From Bacteroides sp. (GTDB taxonomy: Bacteria > Bacillota > Clostridia > Oscillospirales > Acutalibacteraceae): a stretch of 64,000 bases of DNA. Below, piece after piece: positions 571 to 50,711 of this stretch. Location: contig JAMPEQ010000004.1 of NCBI GenBank assembly GCA_023665085.1, positions 62,001-126,000 of the forward strand, written 5' to 3'. How positions within the stretch are numbered: the stretch's first letter is position 1; each line of letters starts with the position of its first letter. The position numbers and the translations under genes are program-made. Under the pieces are notes generated by a model. That model was not told the DNA's origin. It saw nothing but the letters and a program-made list of their open reading frames with translations, and searched no databases.

Positions 571-1881
571 ATGGAACAAAAACCAATTACCGCAATAATA
601 GTTGGTGCAGGTCACAGAGCACTGGTTTACAGTGAGCTTGCAAAAACTAATCCTGAAATGCTGAAAATTGTCGGTGTGGCAGATCCTAATCCTGTCAGAA
701 GAAAGCACTGCATGGAATACTTCGGTTTCTCTGAAGATATGTGTTTTGAATCAGCAGAAGAGCTTGCAAAAAAAGGCAAACTTGCTGATACAATAATTAA
801 CGGTACAATGGATGAGGCTCATATTGAAACTGCTGTTCCTCTGCTCAATGCAGGCTATGATATGCTTCTTGAAAAACCTTTTGCCGTTAATGAAGCCGAA
901 ATGAGAGAGCTTGTTGAATGTGCGAAAAATAACAATTCAAAAGTAATGATTTGCCATGTGCTCAGATACACACCGTTTTATTACGGAATTAAAGAGCGTA
1001 TTGCAAAAGGCGAAATTGGTGATATCATCAATATTCAAACTACAGAGCATGTATCATATCATCATCTATCAACATCATACGTTCGAGGTAAGTGGGCTAA
1101 TTCTGACAAGTGCCATACATCAATGCTCCTTGCAAAGTGTTGTCACGATATTGACCTTATGATGTGGTTCATGAGCGAAACAAAGCCTGTTCAGATTAGC
1201 TCATTTGGAAGTAAATATCAGTTTAAACCCGAAAATGCTCCTGAAGGTGCAGGTACAATCTGTATGAAGGACTGCCCTCTTGTTGATACCTGCAAGTTTT
1301 CTACCAAGAGACTTTACATAGATCATCCTGACAGATGGGCATTCTATGTTTGGGATGCTCTCGAGCATATTGATAATCCTACTATTGAAGATAAAATTGA
1401 GCTTATGAAGAGTGACAGCCCTTACGCAAGATGCATGTATAAGTGCGATAACAATGTTGTTGATCACCAATCAGTTCTTGTAAACTTTGCAAATGGTGCA
1501 ACAGGTACTCACAATATGGTTGGCGGTTCTTCACAATCACTTCGTAAGATTCATATTATCGGAACTCTCGGTGAAATTTACGGCAATTTTGAAGAATCAA
1601 AATTCTATGTATCAAAAATTAATCCTTCTCCTGATGCTCACAACGGAGAATGTGACATCGAAGAAGTTGACCTTAATGTAACAGGTGATATGGTAGGAGC
1701 TTACGGTGGTCACGGCGGTGGAGACGAAAGACTTACTGCTGACTTTGTTAAATTTATCAGAGGAGATGCACCAAGCCTTGCATGCACTTCAATTTTTGAT
1801 TCTGTTGCAGGTCATTTATGTGTATATCTTGCAGATGAGTCAAGAGAAAATGGCGGAAAGCCTATCGAAGTTAAACTTTAA
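571..1881 (+). CDS. Gfo/Idh/MocA-family NAD(P)-dependent oxidoreductase
   Basis: The 436-residue protein starts with a Rossmann nucleotide-binding motif (AIIVGAGHRALVYSELA, about residues 8-24) and has the family's EKPFA segment near residue 100, which carries the catalytic-region lysine. The C-terminal alpha/beta domain includes a cysteine-rich insert at about 229-243 (CMKDCPLVDTCKF) seen in a subset of this family and perhaps a metal site. Members oxidise or reduce sugars, inositols and related polyols; the substrate cannot be read from sequence. The ATG follows AGAAGAGG. The gene is alone: its own promoter lies upstream and a new consensus promoter begins at its stop codon. Confidence 0.85.
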   Translation: MEQKPITAIIVGAGHRALVYSELAKTNPEMLKIVGVADPNPVRRKHCMEYFGFSEDMCFESAEELAKKGKLADTIINGTMDEAHIETAVPLLNAGYDMLLEKPFAVNEAEMRELVECAKNNNSKVMICHVLRYTPFYYGIKERIAKGEIGDIINIQTTEHVSYHHLSTSYVRGKWANSDKCHTSMLLAKCCHDIDLMMWFMSETKPVQISSFGSKYQFKPENAPEGAGTICMKDCPLVDTCKFSTKRLYIDHPDRWAFYVWDALEHIDNPTIEDKIELMKSDSPYARCMYKCDNNVVDHQSVLVNFANGATGTHNMVGGSSQSLRKIHIIGTLGEIYGNFEESKFYVSKINPSPDAHNGECDIEEVDLNVTGDMVGAYGGHGGGDERLTADFVKFIRGDAPSLACTSIFDSVAGHLCVYLADESRENGGKPIEVKL

Positions 1882-1882
1882 T

Positions 1883-1911
1883 TTGACAAACAAGCCTAAG
1901 TGTGCTATCAT
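1883..1911 (+). promoter_or_regulatory. Consensus promoter for the leader/GNAT operon
   Basis: TTGACA (1883-1888) and TATCAT (1906-1911) are separated by exactly 17 bases. The promoter starts next to the stop codon of the upstream oxidoreductase. Transcription would begin near 1918, just before the leader ORF. It is one of the strongest-looking promoters in the window. Confidence 0.8.
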
Positions 1912-1942
1912 CCGATTAAAGAAATATTGAGGTAAATATATT

Positions 1943-2029
1943 ATGTTTAATCTGTTTTCAAACCTTTATAGACCTGTTCAGCCTATGTATCGTATATGGG
2001 CTTATTCAGGTTATGTTCAAGGTAGTTGA
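1943..2029 (+). CDS. 28-residue putative regulatory leader peptide
   Basis: A short ORF encodes MFNLFSNLYRPVQPMYRIWA followed by YSGYVQGS. A GAGGT ribosome binding site lies 9 bases before the ATG, and the ORF sits between a consensus promoter and an intrinsic terminator. No protein family is recognised. Its position and size match leader peptides of translation-coupled attenuators such as those upstream of antibiotic-resistance genes (established for erm, cat and some ABC-F genes). Codons 24-26 contain TTATGTTCA, which is exactly complementary to bases in the downstream terminator loop. A coding role other than regulation is unlikely, but expression is unproven. Confidence 0.65.
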   Translation: MFNLFSNLYRPVQPMYRIWAYSGYVQGS

Positions 2030-2105
2030 TATAGCAGATTATATTATGATTATATAAAACATTAAACTGCTGATGAACATAAGGTTTGTCAGCAGTTATT
2101 TTTTT
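2011..2105 (+). promoter_or_regulatory. Putative attenuator with competing hairpins
   Basis: Terminator form: AACTGCTGA (2065-2073) pairs with TCAGCAGTT (2089-2097), followed by a T-run from 2099 to 2105. Competing form: TTATGTTCA (2011-2019, the end of the leader ORF) is a perfect 9-base complement of TGAACATAA (2074-2082), and AGCAG (2033-2037) can pair with CTGCT (2067-2071). The second form would block the 5' arm and loop of the terminator. A ribosome reaching the leader stop would cover 2011-2019 and favour termination; one stalled early would leave it free and favour readthrough. The pairings are seen; the mechanism is inferred. Confidence 0.65.
2065..2105 (+). terminator. Intrinsic terminator inside the leader
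   Basis: A 9-bp stem (2065-2073 with 2089-2097) with a 15-base loop is followed by seven T residues. It lies between the leader peptide and the first acetyltransferase, so it is placed for conditional termination and does not end an upstream gene. Confidence 0.85.
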
Positions 2106-2116
2106 GGGAGAAAATA

Positions 2117-2668
2117 ATGATTGAGTTAGTATTAATTAAAGAAAATGAATTAAAAATGGCATATAGAATGCACAGAAAAGGATTTATACCAACATTTCTA
2201 AAATATCATGACAGAAATAATCCTGTTTTTACAACATATAAAAAATTTCTTTCATATTTCATCTCTCCTAACATGCATATGTACTGGATTATATATAACG
2301 GCGAAGCAGTCGGAGAAATATTTGTATATATCAAAGACGATTTTGTAAAGCTTGCAAGAATTTTTATACTCAAAAAATTCCAGAACAAAGGCATTGCACA
2401 GAATGCAATTAAAATTGCAGAAAACCTTTTTACTAATAATAAACGATGGTGTCTTAATACAATCAAGGAAGAAAAGAATAACTGTCACCTATACGAAAAG
2501 CTTGGCTATAAGCCGACAGGCAAAGAAAAAGTAATTAACAAAAGAATGACTGTTATTGACTATGAAAAATTTATTGATATTGAAGAAAAAAAGCTGGAAA
2601 TTAATGGTATGTCGATTGGTTTTTGCAGTATATCTAAGGAGGAATGGCAATGTATGAATACGAAATAG
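2117..2668 (+). CDS. GNAT-family N-acetyltransferase
   Basis: This 183-residue protein has a GNAT fold with the acetyl-CoA pyrophosphate-binding motif A around residues 96-101 (QNKGIA, matching Q/R-x-x-G-x-G/A) and the usual C-terminal LYEKLGYKPTG segment. GNATs move an acetyl group from acetyl-CoA to an amine on small molecules, antibiotics, peptides or proteins; the acceptor is unknown. The ATG follows GGGAG just beyond the leader terminator. It is the first gene of a tight four-gene operon, and its 3' end overlaps the next gene by 19 bases if that gene starts at 2650. Confidence 0.85.
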   Translation: MIELVLIKENELKMAYRMHRKGFIPTFLKYHDRNNPVFTTYKKFLSYFISPNMHMYWIIYNGEAVGEIFVYIKDDFVKLARIFILKKFQNKGIAQNAIKIAENLFTNNKRWCLNTIKEEKNNCHLYEKLGYKPTGKEKVINKRMTVIDYEKFIDIEEKKLEINGMSIGFCSISKEEWQCMNTK

Positions 2669-3114
2669 CTAAGCTTAATGTTGAGGAATATTCCAAATGC
2701 AATAATATTTGGGATATGAAAAAATGCCCGTATACTAATTACTTCAAAAATCAAATAATCAGTGGTGACAGAATTGTATACATTTATAAAATCAATAATG
2801 AATTTATCGGCGAAGGAGCTTTGGTTGTCAATATTGATGACAGTGACTATTTTATACCAAATAAGAGAATCTATCTTTCAAGAATGATAGTAAAAAAGGA
2901 GTATAGAAATCAGGGTATTGGCAGTAAACTGATTGACTTTCTTTCAAACACTGCAAAAGAAATGGGTTACAGTGAAATTGCAATTGGAGTTGACAAGAAC
3001 AACACCGTTGCATTAAATCTTTATCAAAAGAAAGGCTTTACAACAATTGTTAGAGAAGATAAAGACGAGCATGGAGAATTTTATAAGCTTTTAAAGGAGT
3101 TGAAATTATGTTAA
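2650..3114 (+). CDS. GNAT-family N-acetyltransferase
   Basis: The 154-residue protein has motif A RNQGIGSKL and the C-terminal ALNLYQKKGF segment typical of GNAT acetyltransferases. Two in-frame ATGs exist. The one at 2644 is one base after the AAGGAGG ribosome binding site, whereas the one at 2650 has a normal 7-base spacing, so 2650 is chosen. The gene overlaps the previous one by 19 bases and the next by 7, implying translational coupling. The substrate is unknown. It is divergent in sequence from its two GNAT neighbours, so a recent tandem duplication is not obvious. Confidence 0.85.
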   Translation: MYEYEIAKLNVEEYSKCNNIWDMKKCPYTNYFKNQIISGDRIVYIYKINNEFIGEGALVVNIDDSDYFIPNKRIYLSRMIVKKEYRNQGIGSKLIDFLSNTAKEMGYSEIAIGVDKNNTVALNLYQKKGFTTIVREDKDEHGEFYKLLKELKLC

Positions 3115-3548
3115 TAAGAAAAATGACTATTGATGACTATGATGAGGTTTATTCTATTTGGATTTCTTGTAAAGGCATGGGACTGAATTCACTTGATGAC
3201 AGTAAAGATGGTATAAATAAATTTCTAAATAGAAATCCTGACACATGCTTTACGGCAACAGAGGAAAATAAAATAGTTGGTTGTATTCTAGCAGGTAATG
3301 ACGGACGAAGAGGATATGTTTATCATACTGCAGTAAGTCCGGACTACCGGCAAAAAGGAATAGGAACAAAACTTACAGAAAAAGTCATAGAAGCATTAAA
3401 AGAAATTGGTATAAGCAAAGCTGCTCTCCTTGTATTTGCAAACAATGAAAACGGAAATCAATTCTGGAATAAAATTGGTTTCACTGAGCGTAATGATTTA
3501 ATTTACAGAAACAAAACAATAAAGGAAAGCGACAGAATAGATACATAG
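3108..3548 (+). CDS. GNAT-family N-acetyltransferase (YpeA/RimI-like)
   Basis: The 146-residue protein starts MLIRKMTIDDYDEVYSIW, the classic GNAT opening, and has motif A YRQKGIGTKL and the ending GNQFWNKIGFTERND. It resembles the short YpeA type. The acceptor is unknown. It overlaps the preceding gene by 7 bases and lies 8 bases before the methyltransferase, so the four genes are probably one transcript controlled by the leader at 1943-2105. Confidence 0.85.
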   Translation: MLIRKMTIDDYDEVYSIWISCKGMGLNSLDDSKDGINKFLNRNPDTCFTATEENKIVGCILAGNDGRRGYVYHTAVSPDYRQKGIGTKLTEKVIEALKEIGISKAALLVFANNENGNQFWNKIGFTERNDLIYRNKTIKESDRIDT

Positions 3549-3556
3549 GAGAAATT

Positions 3557-4345
3557 ATGATTACTAATAAGAATATAGATAACGGAAATAAATTTGACTG
3601 GGGACTTGCCAGCAGTGACTACGCAAAATACAGAGATATTTATCCTGAGGAATTTTATAAAAGAATTGTGGATTTAAGTTACTGTACAAATAATCAAAAG
3701 GTTCTTGACCTTGGCACAGGAACAGGCGTACTTCCGAGAAACATGGCAAAATACGGAGCTGAATTTGTCGGAACAGATATATCTGAAAATCAGATAAAAT
3801 ATGCCAAAGAGCTGTCAGAAAAAGCCAGTCTAAAAATTAATTATATTGTATCTTCGGCAGAAGATTTAGAATTTGACAATAATTGCTTTGATATTGTTAC
3901 AGCATGCCAGTGCTTTATGTATTTTGACAAAAGTATTATTCTGCCTAAAATTCATAGATTTTTAAAAGACGATGGGCATTTTCTGATACTTTATATGGCA
4001 TGGCTACCGTTTGAGAGTGAAATTGCAAAAACAAGCGAAGATTTGGTGCTGAAATATAATCCTTCATGGACAGGCAGAGGAATGACAAAATATAATCTCG
4101 AAGAACCTGAATGGTCAAAAAAATATTTTTCTCTATCAAATGCAATAACATATGAAACAGATATTCCTTTTACAAGAGAAACCTGGCACGGCCGTATAAA
4201 AGCCTGCCGAGGAATAGGTGCATCTTCACTCAGCGAATCAGAAATTGACAATTGGGAAAAAGAACATCTTAAATATTTAAAAACTGTACCGAATGAGTTT
4301 ACTATCCCCCACTATGTATCAATTTTAGACTTAAAGAAAAAATAG
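3557..4345 (+). CDS. Class I SAM-dependent methyltransferase
   Basis: The 262-residue protein has the SAM-binding motif I VLDLGTGTGVLPRNMA (about 50-65), the acidic motif II FVGTDIS, and FDIVTACQCFMYFD as motif IV. These place it in the UbiE/small-molecule methyltransferase group. The C-terminal half lacks features that identify the acceptor. It is the last gene of the attenuator-controlled operon; an AGGAGA ribosome binding site precedes the ATG, and a hairpin follows directly. A resistance or detoxification role is only suggested by the context. Confidence 0.8.
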   Translation: MITNKNIDNGNKFDWGLASSDYAKYRDIYPEEFYKRIVDLSYCTNNQKVLDLGTGTGVLPRNMAKYGAEFVGTDISENQIKYAKELSEKASLKINYIVSSAEDLEFDNNCFDIVTACQCFMYFDKSIILPKIHRFLKDDGHFLILYMAWLPFESEIAKTSEDLVLKYNPSWTGRGMTKYNLEEPEWSKKYFSLSNAITYETDIPFTRETWHGRIKACRGIGASSLSESEIDNWEKEHLKYLKTVPNEFTIPHYVSILDLKKK

Positions 4346-4365
4346 ACCGATGATTTCATCGGTCT
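4344..4365 (-). terminator. Terminator between convergent operons
   Basis: A 10-bp stem (AGACCGATGA with TCATCGGTCT) and a 2-base loop overlap the methyltransferase stop codon. On the reverse strand it is followed by TTTTTTCTTT, so it works best as the end of the iscS-mnmA operon. On the forward strand only a weak AT stretch follows. Confidence 0.75.
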
Positions 4366-4379
4366 ATAATTATAACTAA

Positions 4380-5444
4380 TTATAATATTGTTCCTCCTCC
4401 TAAAACAATATCTTCATCATAAAGAACAACTGCCTGCCCTTTTGTTACAGCTCTTTGAGGATTATCAAAAACAACCTTAACCTTGTTTTCATCAATAATA
4501 TATGCAGTCGCATCCTGCTCTGACATATTATATCGTACACGAGCCTTACACCTTATGGGACTACTGATATCAGGAACAAGCCAGTTAAAATTATCTGCAA
4601 ACAGCTCTGTTGAAAATAATTCTTCATTAGTGCAAAGAGTAACTGTATTATTTTCAATATTTTTATCTGCAACATACATAGGTTTTCCAAATGCTACACC
4701 AAGTCCTTTGCGCTGCCCATTAGTATAGCGAATAATTCCCTGATGTCTGCCTATTACATTACCGTGAATGTCAACGAAATTACCTGCAGGATATTTTTTT
4801 CCTGTGTAACTTTCAATAAACTTAGCATAATCACCGTCAGTAACAAAGCAAATATCCTGACTGTCTCTTTTAGTGGCATTCAAAAAGCCTTCAGACTCTG
4901 CAATTTCTCTTATCTCAGGCTTGGAATACTCTCCAAGAGGAAATAAAATATGAGCAAGCTGATTTTGAGTAAGAGAGTATAAAACATAACTCTGATCTTT
5001 CTTATGGTCCTTTGCCTTTTTCAGATAAAACCAGCCGTTTCTTTCTTCAACCTTTGCATAATGACCTGTAACCACATAGTCAAACTGAAGTTCATTCATT
5101 CTTTCAAAAAGCTTCTCAAACTTAAGATGCCTATTGCAGTCAATACACGGATTAGGAGTTCCGCCGTTTTCATATGTACTAATAAATTTGTCAATAACCT
5201 TTTCCTTAAATTCATCTTTAAAATTAAAGACGTAATAAGGCATTGACAATCGTCTTGCAACTGCTCTTGCATCCTCTATGTCATCAAGAGAACAGCATGT
5301 CTTTTCTGTATCAGCAGCAATGTCATCATTATCATAAAGCTTCATTGTTGCGCCAATACATTCATATTCTTTTTTCTTCATTAAAAAGGCGGCAACGCTG
5401 GAATCAACGCCACCGCTCATTGCAATAATTGCCTTTTTACTCAT
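4380..5444 (-). CDS. mnmA: tRNA-specific 2-thiouridylase MnmA
   Basis: The 354-residue protein has the PP-loop ATP-binding motif SGGVDSS at residues 10-16, the first catalytic cysteine in GGTPNPCIDCNRHLKF and the second in SQDICFV. MnmA adenylates and thiolates U34 of Lys, Glu and Gln tRNAs, using sulfur from a cysteine desulfurase. Its ATG overlaps the nadA stop as TAATG. Being in the same operon as iscS supports direct sulfur supply. The length is normal for the family. Confidence 0.97.
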   Translation of the reverse strand: MSKKAIIAMSGGVDSSVAAFLMKKKEYECIGATMKLYDNDDIAADTEKTCCSLDDIEDARAVARRLSMPYYVFNFKDEFKEKVIDKFISTYENGGTPNPCIDCNRHLKFEKLFERMNELQFDYVVTGHYAKVEERNGWFYLKKAKDHKKDQSYVLYSLTQNQLAHILFPLGEYSKPEIREIAESEGFLNATKRDSQDICFVTDGDYAKFIESYTGKKYPAGNFVDIHGNVIGRHQGIIRYTNGQRKGLGVAFGKPMYVADKNIENNTVTLCTNEELFSTELFADNFNWLVPDISSPIRCKARVRYNMSEQDATAYIIDENKVKVVFDNPQRAVTKGQAVVLYDEDIVLGGGTIL

Positions 5445-6355
5445 TAGCCTAACCTTATCATTTCATCGATACATCTTTTAGCGCCCTTGTATATTTCTTC
5501 ATCAAGAGTAATTTCTTCACCGAATGTGCCTTTACAGCAATTTAAAACATCAACCAGAGTAGTAGCCTTCATATTATGGCAAATACAATCCATTGAAAGA
5601 GGATAAAAGCTTTTATCGGGGCATTCTAACTGCAAATGTGAAACGATACTGTTTTCAGTTCCGATAATAAATTCTTTTGCGTCACTGTTTTTTGCATAAT
5701 TCATAATACCCGTAGTTGAACCTGCATAATCAGCCAGTTCGACAACCTCACTTCTGCATTCAGGATGAACTAAAAATAAAGAATTGGGATGCATATTCTT
5801 TGCTCTTTTCACATCTTCTGCTGACATTCTGGCATGAGTAGGACATCCACCATTTAAAAGCTTAAAATTCTTTTCCGGTATCTGCTTAGCAATCCAGCTT
5901 CCTAAATTACAGTCAGGAATAAATAAAATATTATCGCAGTCAAGCTGTTTGCAAATCTTAAGTGCAGATGAAGATGTTACGCATACATCACAAATTGTTT
6001 TAAGCTCACTGGTTGTGTTTATATAAGCAACAACCTTATAGTCAGGATACTGCTCTTTTACCAGTGCAATCTCCTCTTTACCGAACATTTCAGCCATAGG
6101 ACAGCCTGCAGAAGCATTTGACAATATAACCTTTTTATCGGGTGAAAGTATCTTAACTGTTTCAGCCATAAATCTAACACCGCACATTATTACTGTCTTA
6201 TTTGAAACCTTTGATGCCTTTACTGAGAGAGCAAAGGAATCTCCGCTGAAATCAGCAATTTCCAATATCTCGGGTGACTGATAACAATGTGCTAAAATAC
6301 AAATATCTTTCTCTTTTTTAAGCTTTAAAATTTCTTGTTGAATGTCTTTAATCAT
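5444..6355 (-). CDS. nadA: Quinolinate synthase NadA
   Basis: The 303-residue enzyme condenses iminoaspartate with dihydroxyacetone phosphate to quinolinate in NAD synthesis, and carries a [4Fe-4S] cluster. Likely cluster ligands are Cys85 (SAGCPMAEM), Cys171 (NGGCPTHARM) and Cys259 (CHNMKATTL). The start chosen is the ATG at 6355, which overlaps the iscU stop as TAATG with GGAG 7 bases upstream; the in-frame start at 6373 lies inside iscU and has no better site. No nadB or nadC is next to it. The cluster explains its place behind the Fe-S assembly genes. Confidence 0.96.
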   Translation of the reverse strand: MIKDIQQEILKLKKEKDICILAHCYQSPEILEIADFSGDSFALSVKASKVSNKTVIMCGVRFMAETVKILSPDKKVILSNASAGCPMAEMFGKEEIALVKEQYPDYKVVAYINTTSELKTICDVCVTSSSALKICKQLDCDNILFIPDCNLGSWIAKQIPEKNFKLLNGGCPTHARMSAEDVKRAKNMHPNSLFLVHPECRSEVVELADYAGSTTGIMNYAKNSDAKEFIIGTENSIVSHLQLECPDKSFYPLSMDCICHNMKATTLVDVLNCCKGTFGEEITLDEEIYKGAKRCIDEMIRLG

Positions 6356-6789
6356 TAGTGTTCTCCGCAGCACTCACAGCATCCTTCACAGAATTGTAAC
6401 GGATCATATGAAATACCTTTATTATCATAATAATTTTTTATAGCTGCTTTAACAGCCTCTTCAGCAAGAACGGAACAGTGAACCTTTACTGCTGGTAATC
6501 CATCAAGAGCTTCAACCACAGCCTTATTTGTCAGTTCCAATGCTTTTGACAAAGGCTGACCTTTTATCATCTCAGTTGCCATAGAGCTTGAAGCAATTGC
6601 AGAAGCACATCCGAAGGTATTGAACTTAACATCTTCGATTATGCCGTTATCACTTACCTTGATATATATTTTCATTATATCACCGCATCGAGCGTTTCCG
6701 ACTTCACCAACACCGTCTGCATTATCAATTTTACCAACATTTCTTGGATTTGTAAAGTGGTCCATCACTTTTTCTGAATAAAGAGCCAT
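6355..6789 (-). CDS. iscU: Fe-S cluster scaffold IscU/NifU-like, with Cys-rich tail
   Basis: The 144-residue scaffold has the three conserved cysteines at 35 (GNARCGD), 61 (TFGCASA) and 105 (KVHCSVL), on which a cluster is built from IscS sulfur. The start at 6789 (MALYSEKVMDHF) is conserved in the family and follows GGAGG; an upstream in-frame ATG at 6813 would overlap iscS. The tail is unusual: residues 134-144 hold five further cysteines (CEGCCECCGEH), a possible extra metal or sulfur site. It is the second gene of the iscS operon. Confidence 0.94.
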   Translation of the reverse strand: MALYSEKVMDHFTNPRNVGKIDNADGVGEVGNARCGDIMKIYIKVSDNGIIEDVKFNTFGCASAIASSSMATEMIKGQPLSKALELTNKAVVEALDGLPAVKVHCSVLAEEAVKAAIKNYYDNKGISYDPLQFCEGCCECCGEH

Positions 6790-50450: not shown

Positions 50451-50711
50451 AATAAAAAAGCCTCTCTGCCTTATAAGGCAAAGAGACGATAAATTACCGT
50501 GGTACCACTCTTTTTCGTTATTGCTAACGCACTTAATGTACTAACATACATTTTCCCATAACGGAGGATTCCGTCTGCACCTACTTATGTTCAGCACAGC
50601 CACTCAGAGAGGATAATCTAATTAACATTGTACTGACTCACAGCAGCCGTCAGCTCTCTTAAACAACTACATAATCAAACCCTGTTCTCATCAACGTGTT
50701 CTCTTATTGGA
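50451..50711 (-). promoter_or_regulatory. T-box riboswitch of porCDAB, specifier probably Ile
   Basis: On the reverse strand the T-box core AGAGTGGTACCACGG (50511-50497) pairs with uncharged tRNA CCA ends. The Stem I distal motif AAGAGAGCTGACGGCTGCTG begins near 50660. A terminator at 50485-50461 (CTCTTTGCC...GGCAGAGAG) is followed by CTTTTTT. Near the base of Stem I the sequence is TAG-ATT-ATC-CTCTCTGAG. By spacing to GAG the specifier is ATC, and by the following-purine rule ATT; both are Ile. Readings such as GAT or TAT are possible. T-boxes antiterminate when the matching tRNA is uncharged. Confidence 0.9.

Follow-up and report, generated by a model that had tools for sequence, protein, structure and literature searches.

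In the classical attenuator of the E. coli trp operon, the leader transcript can adopt alternative pairings, and in the leaders of erm genes, the nascent peptide stalls the ribosome together with a drug. Among the described systems, the one closest in mechanism to the locus analyzed here, likened by description rather than by sequence and within the accessible portion of the source, appears to be bmrB-bmrCD of Bacillus subtilis, in which a translated leader, an intrinsic terminator, an antiterminator and a predicted anti-antiterminator, the role of which the paper leaves open, are involved in the response to ribosome-targeting drugs (PMC4191407). As far as that portion goes, bmrB-bmrCD differs from our locus in that an ABC transporter is controlled and the terminator lies inside the bmrB ORF. 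Nearest in sensing logic and gene content, the RNAs again being set side by side by description, seems to be the topAI-yjhQ-yjhP operon of E. coli, where the short uORF toiL senses translation stress caused by at least five classes of ribosome-targeting drugs and, in the accessible text, acts by blocking the ribosome-binding site of topAI and through Rho-dependent termination, with a toxin-antitoxin pair under its control (PMC12121999). This operon, like ours, encodes a putative acetyltransferase and a putative methyltransferase, so toiL may be taken as a functional parallel, although the accessible text describes Rho and no intrinsic terminator, whereas our locus has one. The tet(M) leader attenuator combines a short leader peptide with transcription attenuation ahead of a resistance gene and, in the accessible part of the review, each listed attenuator of this kind governs a single gene or operon recognised as conferring resistance (PMC5418344). 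The genes downstream of the tet(M) leader differ from those considered here. Finally, the WhiB7 regulon of mycobacteria is induced by ribosome-targeting drugs and includes resistance determinants (PMC10727445); going by the accessible text, it depends on one regulator protein that acts in trans, unlike the operons described below, each of which carries its own predicted RNA switch in cis.

When examining a stretch of 64,000 nucleotides (hereafter, the window, that is, the whole of the analyzed DNA), we observed, ahead of an operon for three GNAT acetyltransferases and a SAM-dependent methyltransferase, an element that shares with classical attenuators, such as that of E. coli trp, the logic of three pairings, namely, A:B, B:C and C:D. 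Judging by the sequence, the features that define ribosome-mediated transcription attenuators, that is, a leader ORF, an intrinsic terminator and an exclusive antiterminator that overlaps the leader, can all be recognised. We consider it likely, with a probability of roughly 0.8, that the region is a four-segment, ribosome-controlled transcription attenuator, with A:B as the leader hairpin, B:C as the ON state and C:D as the OFF state, and that it belongs to a paralogous RNA family. Its features are as follows.

1883..1911, + strand: promoter, TTGACA-17-TATCAT (sequence; the arrangement recurs in homologous loci)
1929..1933, + strand: Shine-Dalgarno site of the leader ORF, GAGGT (sequence)
1943..2029, + strand: leader ORF, 28 codons and TGA, MFNLFSNLYRPVQPMYRIWAYSGYVQGS (sequence; frame open in homologous loci)
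1962..1989, + strand: segment A, 5' arm of the leader hairpin A:B (predicted fold; swap test)
1993..2023, + strand: 3' arm of the A:B hairpin, overlapping segment B (predicted fold; swap and pair-count tests)
2011..2027, + strand: segment B, antiterminator strand (2011-2019 and 2021-2027), pairing with 2074-2082 and 2065-2071
2065..2082, + strand: segment C, 5' arm of the terminator and part of its loop, partner of B or D (folding)
2084..2097, + strand: segment D, 3' arm of the terminator, followed by the T-run 2099-2105 (folding)
2117..2668, + strand: operon gene 1, GNAT acetyltransferase (Pfam Acetyltransf_10, 3.5e-11)
2644..3114, + strand: operon gene 2, GNAT acetyltransferase (Pfam Acetyltransf_1, 7.1e-17)
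3108..3548, + strand: operon gene 3, GNAT acetyltransferase (Pfam Acetyltransf_1, 1.2e-18)
3557..4345, + strand: operon gene 4, SAM-dependent methyltransferase (Pfam Methyltransf_11, 3.5e-21)

The promoter, the 28-codon leader ORF with its own Shine-Dalgarno site and the intrinsic terminator, all proposed in a first-pass annotation of the sequence, were found in place by sequence inspection and folding. The promoter (TTGACA at 1883, a 17-nucleotide spacer, TATCAT ending at 1911 and TG preceding the second hexamer; 11 of 12 matches) begins one base past the stop codon of the preceding gene (571-1881), which encodes an oxidoreductase of the GFO/IDH/MocA family. Its score is the joint highest, together with the sites at 3924 and 4067, among 28 promoter-like sites in the region 1500-6500; shuffles of this region yield 21.4 such sites (sd 5.0), so the score by itself is little proof. 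We accept the promoter because, unlike the score alone, its arrangement is conserved: TTGACA-(16-18)-TANNNT is present 15-75 nucleotides upstream of the leader start in 58 of the 67 loci described below, against 0.07 of 67 expected in shuffles. As a raw count under a loose motif list, an SD-like motif is found at the matching distance in 63 of these loci. The terminator consists of a 14-bp hairpin (2065-2097) followed by an A and seven T; the stretch 2065-2105 folds at -18.7 kcal/mol (z -6.9), with none of 200 shuffles equally stable, shuffles of the region 1500-6500 contain 2.3 terminator-like sites, and an intrinsic terminator separates leader and gene in all 66 loci examined and also in L093.

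Comparison with known families did not assign the element. No Rfam family matches positions 1860-2140 at an E-value of 1 or below, the gathering-score matches of the window being a T-box and a tRNA elsewhere, and the 28-aa leader peptide has no Pfam match up to E 10 within the HMMER filters. Membership in TetM_leader (PF08076), suspected because that model also has 28 positions, was discarded as the peptide has no Pfam match; PF08076 itself has two weak matches on other contigs of the same genome, both below the cut-off. YjhP and YjhQ were likewise rejected as close homologues of the window enzymes, the BLASTP E-values of 8e-6 and 0.009 (single comparisons) pointing to the superfamily level only. 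A literature search, with most subscription papers outside its scope, found neither a description of the element itself nor any GNAT/methyltransferase operon under a leader ORF except topAI-yjhQ-yjhP; the earlier remark that no such leader was known thus stands save for this E. coli operon, with its putative acetyltransferase and putative methyltransferase under toiL. The mechanism is of a kind already known, and the RNA family, the spread of the regulon and its targets appear to be new as far as the literature search shows.

The first-pass annotation considered a single operon; the locus is real, but this scope is too narrow as it is one among dozens of loci. A DNA search of 60 genomes produced matches in 13, all from the genus of the window and one being its own genome, and a homologous leader ORF is present in 10 of the 12 other matched genomes and in a second copy in the own genome; two loci from this search, L012 and L014, look like chance matches and were set aside. 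A covariance model, R1, built from 11 loci, the window included, matches 43 of 80 genomes of the genus at E <=0.01 (35 of the 51 high-quality ones), some of the matches being weak, partial or on the reverse strand; the other 37 have no match at this threshold. Beyond the genus, R1 matches are rare, with 4 of 295 genomes in the order sample, 8 of 300 in the family sample and 2 of 391 in the class sample, with the own genome and genus members counted in; a convincing leader outside the genus was found in three genomes, G336 (L129), G442 (L130) and G401 (L198). An exact pattern scan of named genomes retrieved 11 stretches, all from MAGs labelled as uncultured Clostridia bacterium, Clostridium sp., Eubacterium sp., and Eubacteriaceae or Ruminococcaceae bacterium.

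The analyzed set of 67 loci consists of the window and 66 of 80 fetched regions and comes from 45 genomes, 20 of which contribute two or three loci. Twelve regions without a usable leader were dropped (L113, L120, L121, L123, L125-L128 and L131-L134), as were L094, in which the contig ends ahead of the terminator, and L118, for which the scripted leader start lies too far downstream. Sixteen further regions, none included in the 67, were inspected; no convincing element was seen in L191, L199, L200 and L201, L199 having the appearance of a truncated element, and L197 keeps the RNA motifs and has no ATG-started leader.

The leaders fall into three classes, which read like ...PMYYAWAYLxCVH (class I, 43 loci), ...RMGYICCVHLW (class II, 10 loci) and ...FELxRxxxSMRRAYGFALLCSFSV (class III, 14 loci). 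A second covariance model, R2, built solely from classes II and III, matches 43 of the 80 genomes of the genus at E <=0.001 and 5 of 300 in a family sample; with it, the window scores 48.3 bits (E 1.3e-5), and of the 42 class I loci within the genus, 34 are retrieved. In a further class, outside the 67 loci (L190, L193, L195, L196 and L198), the leaders end with ...LLHSFSV or ...LLHSISV and segments B and C have changed together, e.g., GCACTCAT with ATGAGTGC in L196; the first gene encodes a GNAT at L190, L193 and L198, that of L196 encodes a NUDIX protein, and none is recognisable in L195.

Conservation of the leader ORF and of the pairing in relatives, the lack of which the first-pass annotation had named as a possible refutation, was assessed over the 67 loci, and both are kept. 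The frame homologous to the window leader is open in all 67 loci, compared to 15 and 16 of 67 for the other two frames over the same span; as a leader ORF was a condition for inclusion, it is the difference between frames that is informative. Start codon and B are separated by a distance divisible by three in 40 of the 42 rows of the class I alignment, A4. The pN/pS values, calculated for close pairs with the RNA constraint left in, are 0.63, 0.32 and 0.43 for classes I, II and III, respectively, suggesting some purifying selection on the leader ORF. Relative to the leader ORF, the RNA motif of strand B (about UGUGUUCAU) falls in frame 0 in 51 of the 67 loci (typically as C-V-H), in frame 1 in 13 (mostly as C-S-F) and in frame 2 in two, L086 and L087; in L093, it is too altered for a call. 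In L105 and L107, which have similar leaders, it is in different frames. The use of three frames for strand B indicates that, at the 3' end of the ORF, constraint acts more on the RNA than on the peptide. With the antiterminator strand retained across these changes of frame, the two constraints can be told apart in this family.

The nine exact pairs between 2011-2019 and 2074-2082 reported by the first-pass annotation were confirmed and exceed chance in swap and shuffle tests over the 67 loci. In the window, the B:C duplex is predicted at -16.2 kcal/mol for the two stretches alone and -18.0 kcal/mol with flanks. Across the loci, B and C paired with their own partners give a mean of -16.3 kcal/mol and partners swapped between loci -13.2 kcal/mol (0 of 5000 permutations), and with mononucleotide-shuffled B the mean is -8.3 kcal/mol, 64 of the 67 loci beating the 5th percentile of their own shuffles; the permutations, here and for A:B, ignore phylogeny. 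The second half of the antiterminator, for which AGCAG (2033-2037) had been suggested, is a different one: with both possibilities offered, the predicted duplex uses 2021-2027 and 2065-2071. Also overlooked earlier was the A:B hairpin, which would sequester B; in the window it spans 1962-2023, runs through the leader ORF and folds at -23.2 kcal/mol. Own partners of A:B average -23.6 kcal/mol compared to -16.9 kcal/mol for swapped ones, and within classes I, II and III, the own value was reached in 0, 2 and 0 of 5000 permutations, respectively; for the lower helix alone, the counts are 0, 240 and 0 of 5000, so in class II this part taken alone is not clearly better than with swapped partners. 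The swap tests were adopted because indels and bulges shift the lower arms, so that RNAalifold on MAFFT alignments recovered the apical part of A:B only and missed the lower arms. The strand-B anchors were placed by hand in L072, L075, L086, L087 and L093; in L086 and L087, the GTTCAT motif lies four bases upstream of the anchor used in the swap and occupancy tests, and the frame counts given above are corrected for this. The upstream hairpin, folded from the start codon to B, engages 2-9 (median 7) of the nine bases that form the core of B, and at least five in 62 of the 67 loci. Real leaders fold more stably than their synonymous re-codings (mean z -1.95 over 67 loci), with at most 10 of 200 re-codings as stable in 38 of the 67; in L073, L074 and L085, the leaders fold less stably than the mean of their own re-codings. 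In classes II and III, segment A holds AUGAAC- or UUGAAC-like stretches that resemble C, and segment D resembles B throughout.

Pair counts were obtained from three alignments, namely, A6 (classes II and III, aligned with MAFFT without structure, the structure being taken from L115 and B:C having no role in its construction), A3 (71 rows, two of them reverse-strand matches in L061 and L062) and A4 (42 class I rows, including L094 and without L093 and L129). In comparison with slid controls, which are biased towards a structure taken from one of the aligned sequences, paired cells make up 82.9% against 34-49% for A:B and C:D in A6, 89.4% against 27-65% for B:C in A6, 86.9% against 23-63% for B:C in A3, and 65.2% against 25-51% for A:B by the window fold in A4, where the outer A:B helices pair in just 50-53% of cells. 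The corresponding covariation scores are 0.284 against 0.180 in shuffled alignments, 0.226 against 0.153, 0.120 against 0.091 and 0.225 against 0.163, and in all four cases the score lies above 500 of 500 shuffles. Unlike these scores, the measures that count pairs or pair types are mostly not above shuffles: both-side pair changes were reached in 1, 43, 60 and 252 of 500 shuffles for the four comparisons in the same order, and further pair types were reached in 65 of 500 for A:B and C:D in A6, 14 of 500 for B:C in A3 and 75 of 500 for A:B in A4, the 9 types seen for B:C in A6 comparing with 10.5 in shuffles (500 of 500 reach). Taken together, the swap tests and pair counts, both of which ignore phylogeny, show at the sequence level that the predicted pairings covary in the 67 loci.

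The consequences of translation were modelled by equilibrium folding of the transcript as it stands just before D is made, with a ribosome of an assumed 29-nt footprint at each codon. The mean probability of B:C over the 67 loci is 0.27 without a ribosome, 0.74-0.82 with the P site at codons 4-12, and 0.00 at codons 24-28; the value of 0.12 at the last sense codon is due to some of the longer leaders, where a ribosome that far along no longer covers all of B. In the window, p(B:C) is 0.57 at codon 1, 0.81-0.88 at codons 2-15 and 18, 0.66-0.67 at codons 16-17, 0.56 at codon 19 and 0.00 from codon 20. Some ribosome position raises p(B:C) by at least 0.3 in 50 of the 67 loci and in 17 none does. 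Without a ribosome, A:B beats B:C in 46 loci and does not in the other 21, the window being about balanced, with B:C slightly ahead (A:B 0.33, B:C 0.40). Since p(B:C) is high on early codons and zero on late ones, an early stall should turn the operon ON and completed translation should turn it OFF. The occupancy model is thus in line with the proposal of the first-pass annotation that early stalling frees B, a proposal that lacked the A:B hairpin; that interpretation was right in kind and incomplete.

Under the model, in normal translation the ribosome would reach the end of the leader ORF and cover B while C and D are made, so that C:D forms and transcription stops. In the absence of translation, A would tend to retain B within the leader hairpin, which also favours C:D. 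When translation is slowed, a ribosome on about codons 2-19 of the window leader would cover A and leave B exposed; B could then capture C as it emerges from the polymerase, no terminator would form, and the operon would be transcribed. This kinetic switching, as modelled, would make the leader a gauge of ribosome progress rather than a specific arrest peptide.

An arrest peptide proper, in which the nascent leader peptide stalls the ribosome with one drug class, is the strongest of the alternatives. Some purifying selection on the leader (pN/pS 0.63, 0.32 and 0.43) and the recurrence of class motifs such as AWAYLxCVH speak in its favour, but the codons of these motifs coincide with paired RNA, the strand-B motif occurs in several frames, including different ones in the similar L105 and L107, and the class I peptide is loosely constrained, so we regard this explanation as unlikely. 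If, conversely, the ORF were incidental and the switch were controlled by a ligand or a protein, as in a riboswitch or a binding-protein site, conservation of the RNA structure across reading frames would be expected, as observed. Set against this are the frame open in 67 of 67 loci (a set chosen for the leader) compared to 15-16 for the other frames, the SD-like site in 63 of 67, the start-to-B distance divisible by three in 40 of 42 class I loci and the lack of an Rfam match at E up to 1, which together make such control somewhat less likely still.

A classical amino-acid attenuator, with the ribosome waiting at codons for a scarce amino acid, would be suggested by the conserved Trp codon just upstream of B in class I, especially as the window Trp codon in the A site (P site at codon 18) leaves B free, with p(B:C) of 0.88. 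This Trp codon is a single one, however, and is absent before B in the leaders of class II, class III and the further class; there is no run of one amino acid, and the identified first genes are not involved in amino-acid synthesis or tRNA charging, which renders the possibility quite improbable. Least credible, to the point of being nearly negligible, is a plain 5' terminator with chance complementarity and no regulation: a fixed read-through fraction would also give expression, and promoter-like and terminator-like sites are common in shuffles of the region (21.4 and 2.3), but neither the coordinated changes in mutually exclusive pairings nor the recurrence of the promoter-leader-terminator cassette before different operons would be expected. 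A ribosome-controlled attenuator that gauges the progress of translation thus remains our preferred reading.

The anatomy of the element is conserved, with covarying pairings, and recurs before different operons. The first gene encodes a GNAT or a methyltransferase in 54 of the 67 loci (53 of the 66 others and the window); with families assigned by scanning cluster representatives, the first genes of the 66 other loci belong to GNAT clusters in 36 cases, to methyltransferase clusters in 17, to an S51 peptidase cluster in 3, to a kinase-like family that has no match in Pfam in 2 and to a metallophosphoesterase in 1, with 3 falling elsewhere and none called in 4. Other genes near the elements encode an S66 peptidase, a nucleotidyltransferase, a NUDIX protein and a HAD hydrolase. 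In the window operon, where neighbouring genes are separated by short gaps or overlap, all four genes have relatives behind other copies of the element: a relative of gene 1 is the first gene in 14 of the 66 other loci, relatives of gene 2 are the first genes behind other copies (e.g., 68% identity in L114 and 62% in L097), gene 3 is 66% identical to gene 1 of L118 and 62% to gene 3 of L111, and gene 4 is 73% identical to a gene behind the element in L085. The own genome contains 14 Acetyltransf_1 matches, 4 of them behind its two elements. Nine enzymes were scanned against NCBIfam and none passes a cut-off among the matches listed, at most 25 per protein, so their role in resistance is putative. 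The PDB matches of the methyltransferase and one GNAT are varied members of their superfamilies, including a putative streptothricin acetyltransferase (E 6.9e-7).

The operons of L097, L098, L100, L102, L111 and others repeatedly contain members of a protein family that has the motif GDAAVGKMTVGQEL and looks kinase- or ATPase-like on visual inspection, 12 of them within the first three genes; its representative has no Pfam match and no NCBIfam match among the matches listed. Peptidase genes are found behind the element in L104, L108 and L130 (S51) and as gene 2 of L112 (S66). Relatives of S66 peptidases include microcin C immunity proteins, so that, by analogy, peptide-nucleotide inhibitors are possible substrates of the peptidases.

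The enzymes controlled by the element probably modify small molecules that block translation, and slowed translation would be the inducer. Conceivably, the cassette, that is, the promoter, the leader ORF and the three exclusive pairings, has been copied before dozens of different operons, diverging into several leader classes, and forms a genus-wide, RNA-encoded defence regulon that has no regulator protein and whose enzymes disarm translation inhibitors in the gut; we put the odds of this broader proposal at about even. If it holds, each operon gauges ribosome progress for itself, and the disarming enzymes comprise several GNAT clusters, two methyltransferase clusters, S51 and S66 peptidases, NUDIX and HAD hydrolases and the kinase-like protein. 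The recurrence suggests a shared self-protection programme in this group of uncultured gut bacteria. Many enzymes to which no resistance function has been ascribed would be flagged by the switch as likely to respond when translation is inhibited, which would provide a sequence-based route to candidate self-protection enzymes of these bacteria and to the natural inhibitors that they face.

Some further observations concern individual copies and their surroundings. A mobile origin of the element was considered and gained no support, the 28-aa leader being unmatched by tblastn in 72,556 plasmid records (a weak test with so short a query) and the class I pattern having no exact match in viral contigs (a narrow test). 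Elsewhere in the window, a T-box leader (Rfam RF00230, 124.5 bits) lies at 50479-50703 on the - strand. The second copy in the own genome, L069 (the same as L002; G000:C26:150357-150530), precedes a GNAT gene and, unlike most copies, has no TTGACA promoter at the usual place, so it may depend on read-through from upstream. In L074, L087, L088 and L090, the target genes behind the elements are partial or broken, or none can be recognised, as though the operon had decayed and the switch had stayed. In genome G024, the element L062 (the same place as L003) is located directly 3' of a gene whose C-terminal residues resemble those of the window ORF 4380-5444, which we take to be mnmA and which flanks the window operon in convergent orientation.
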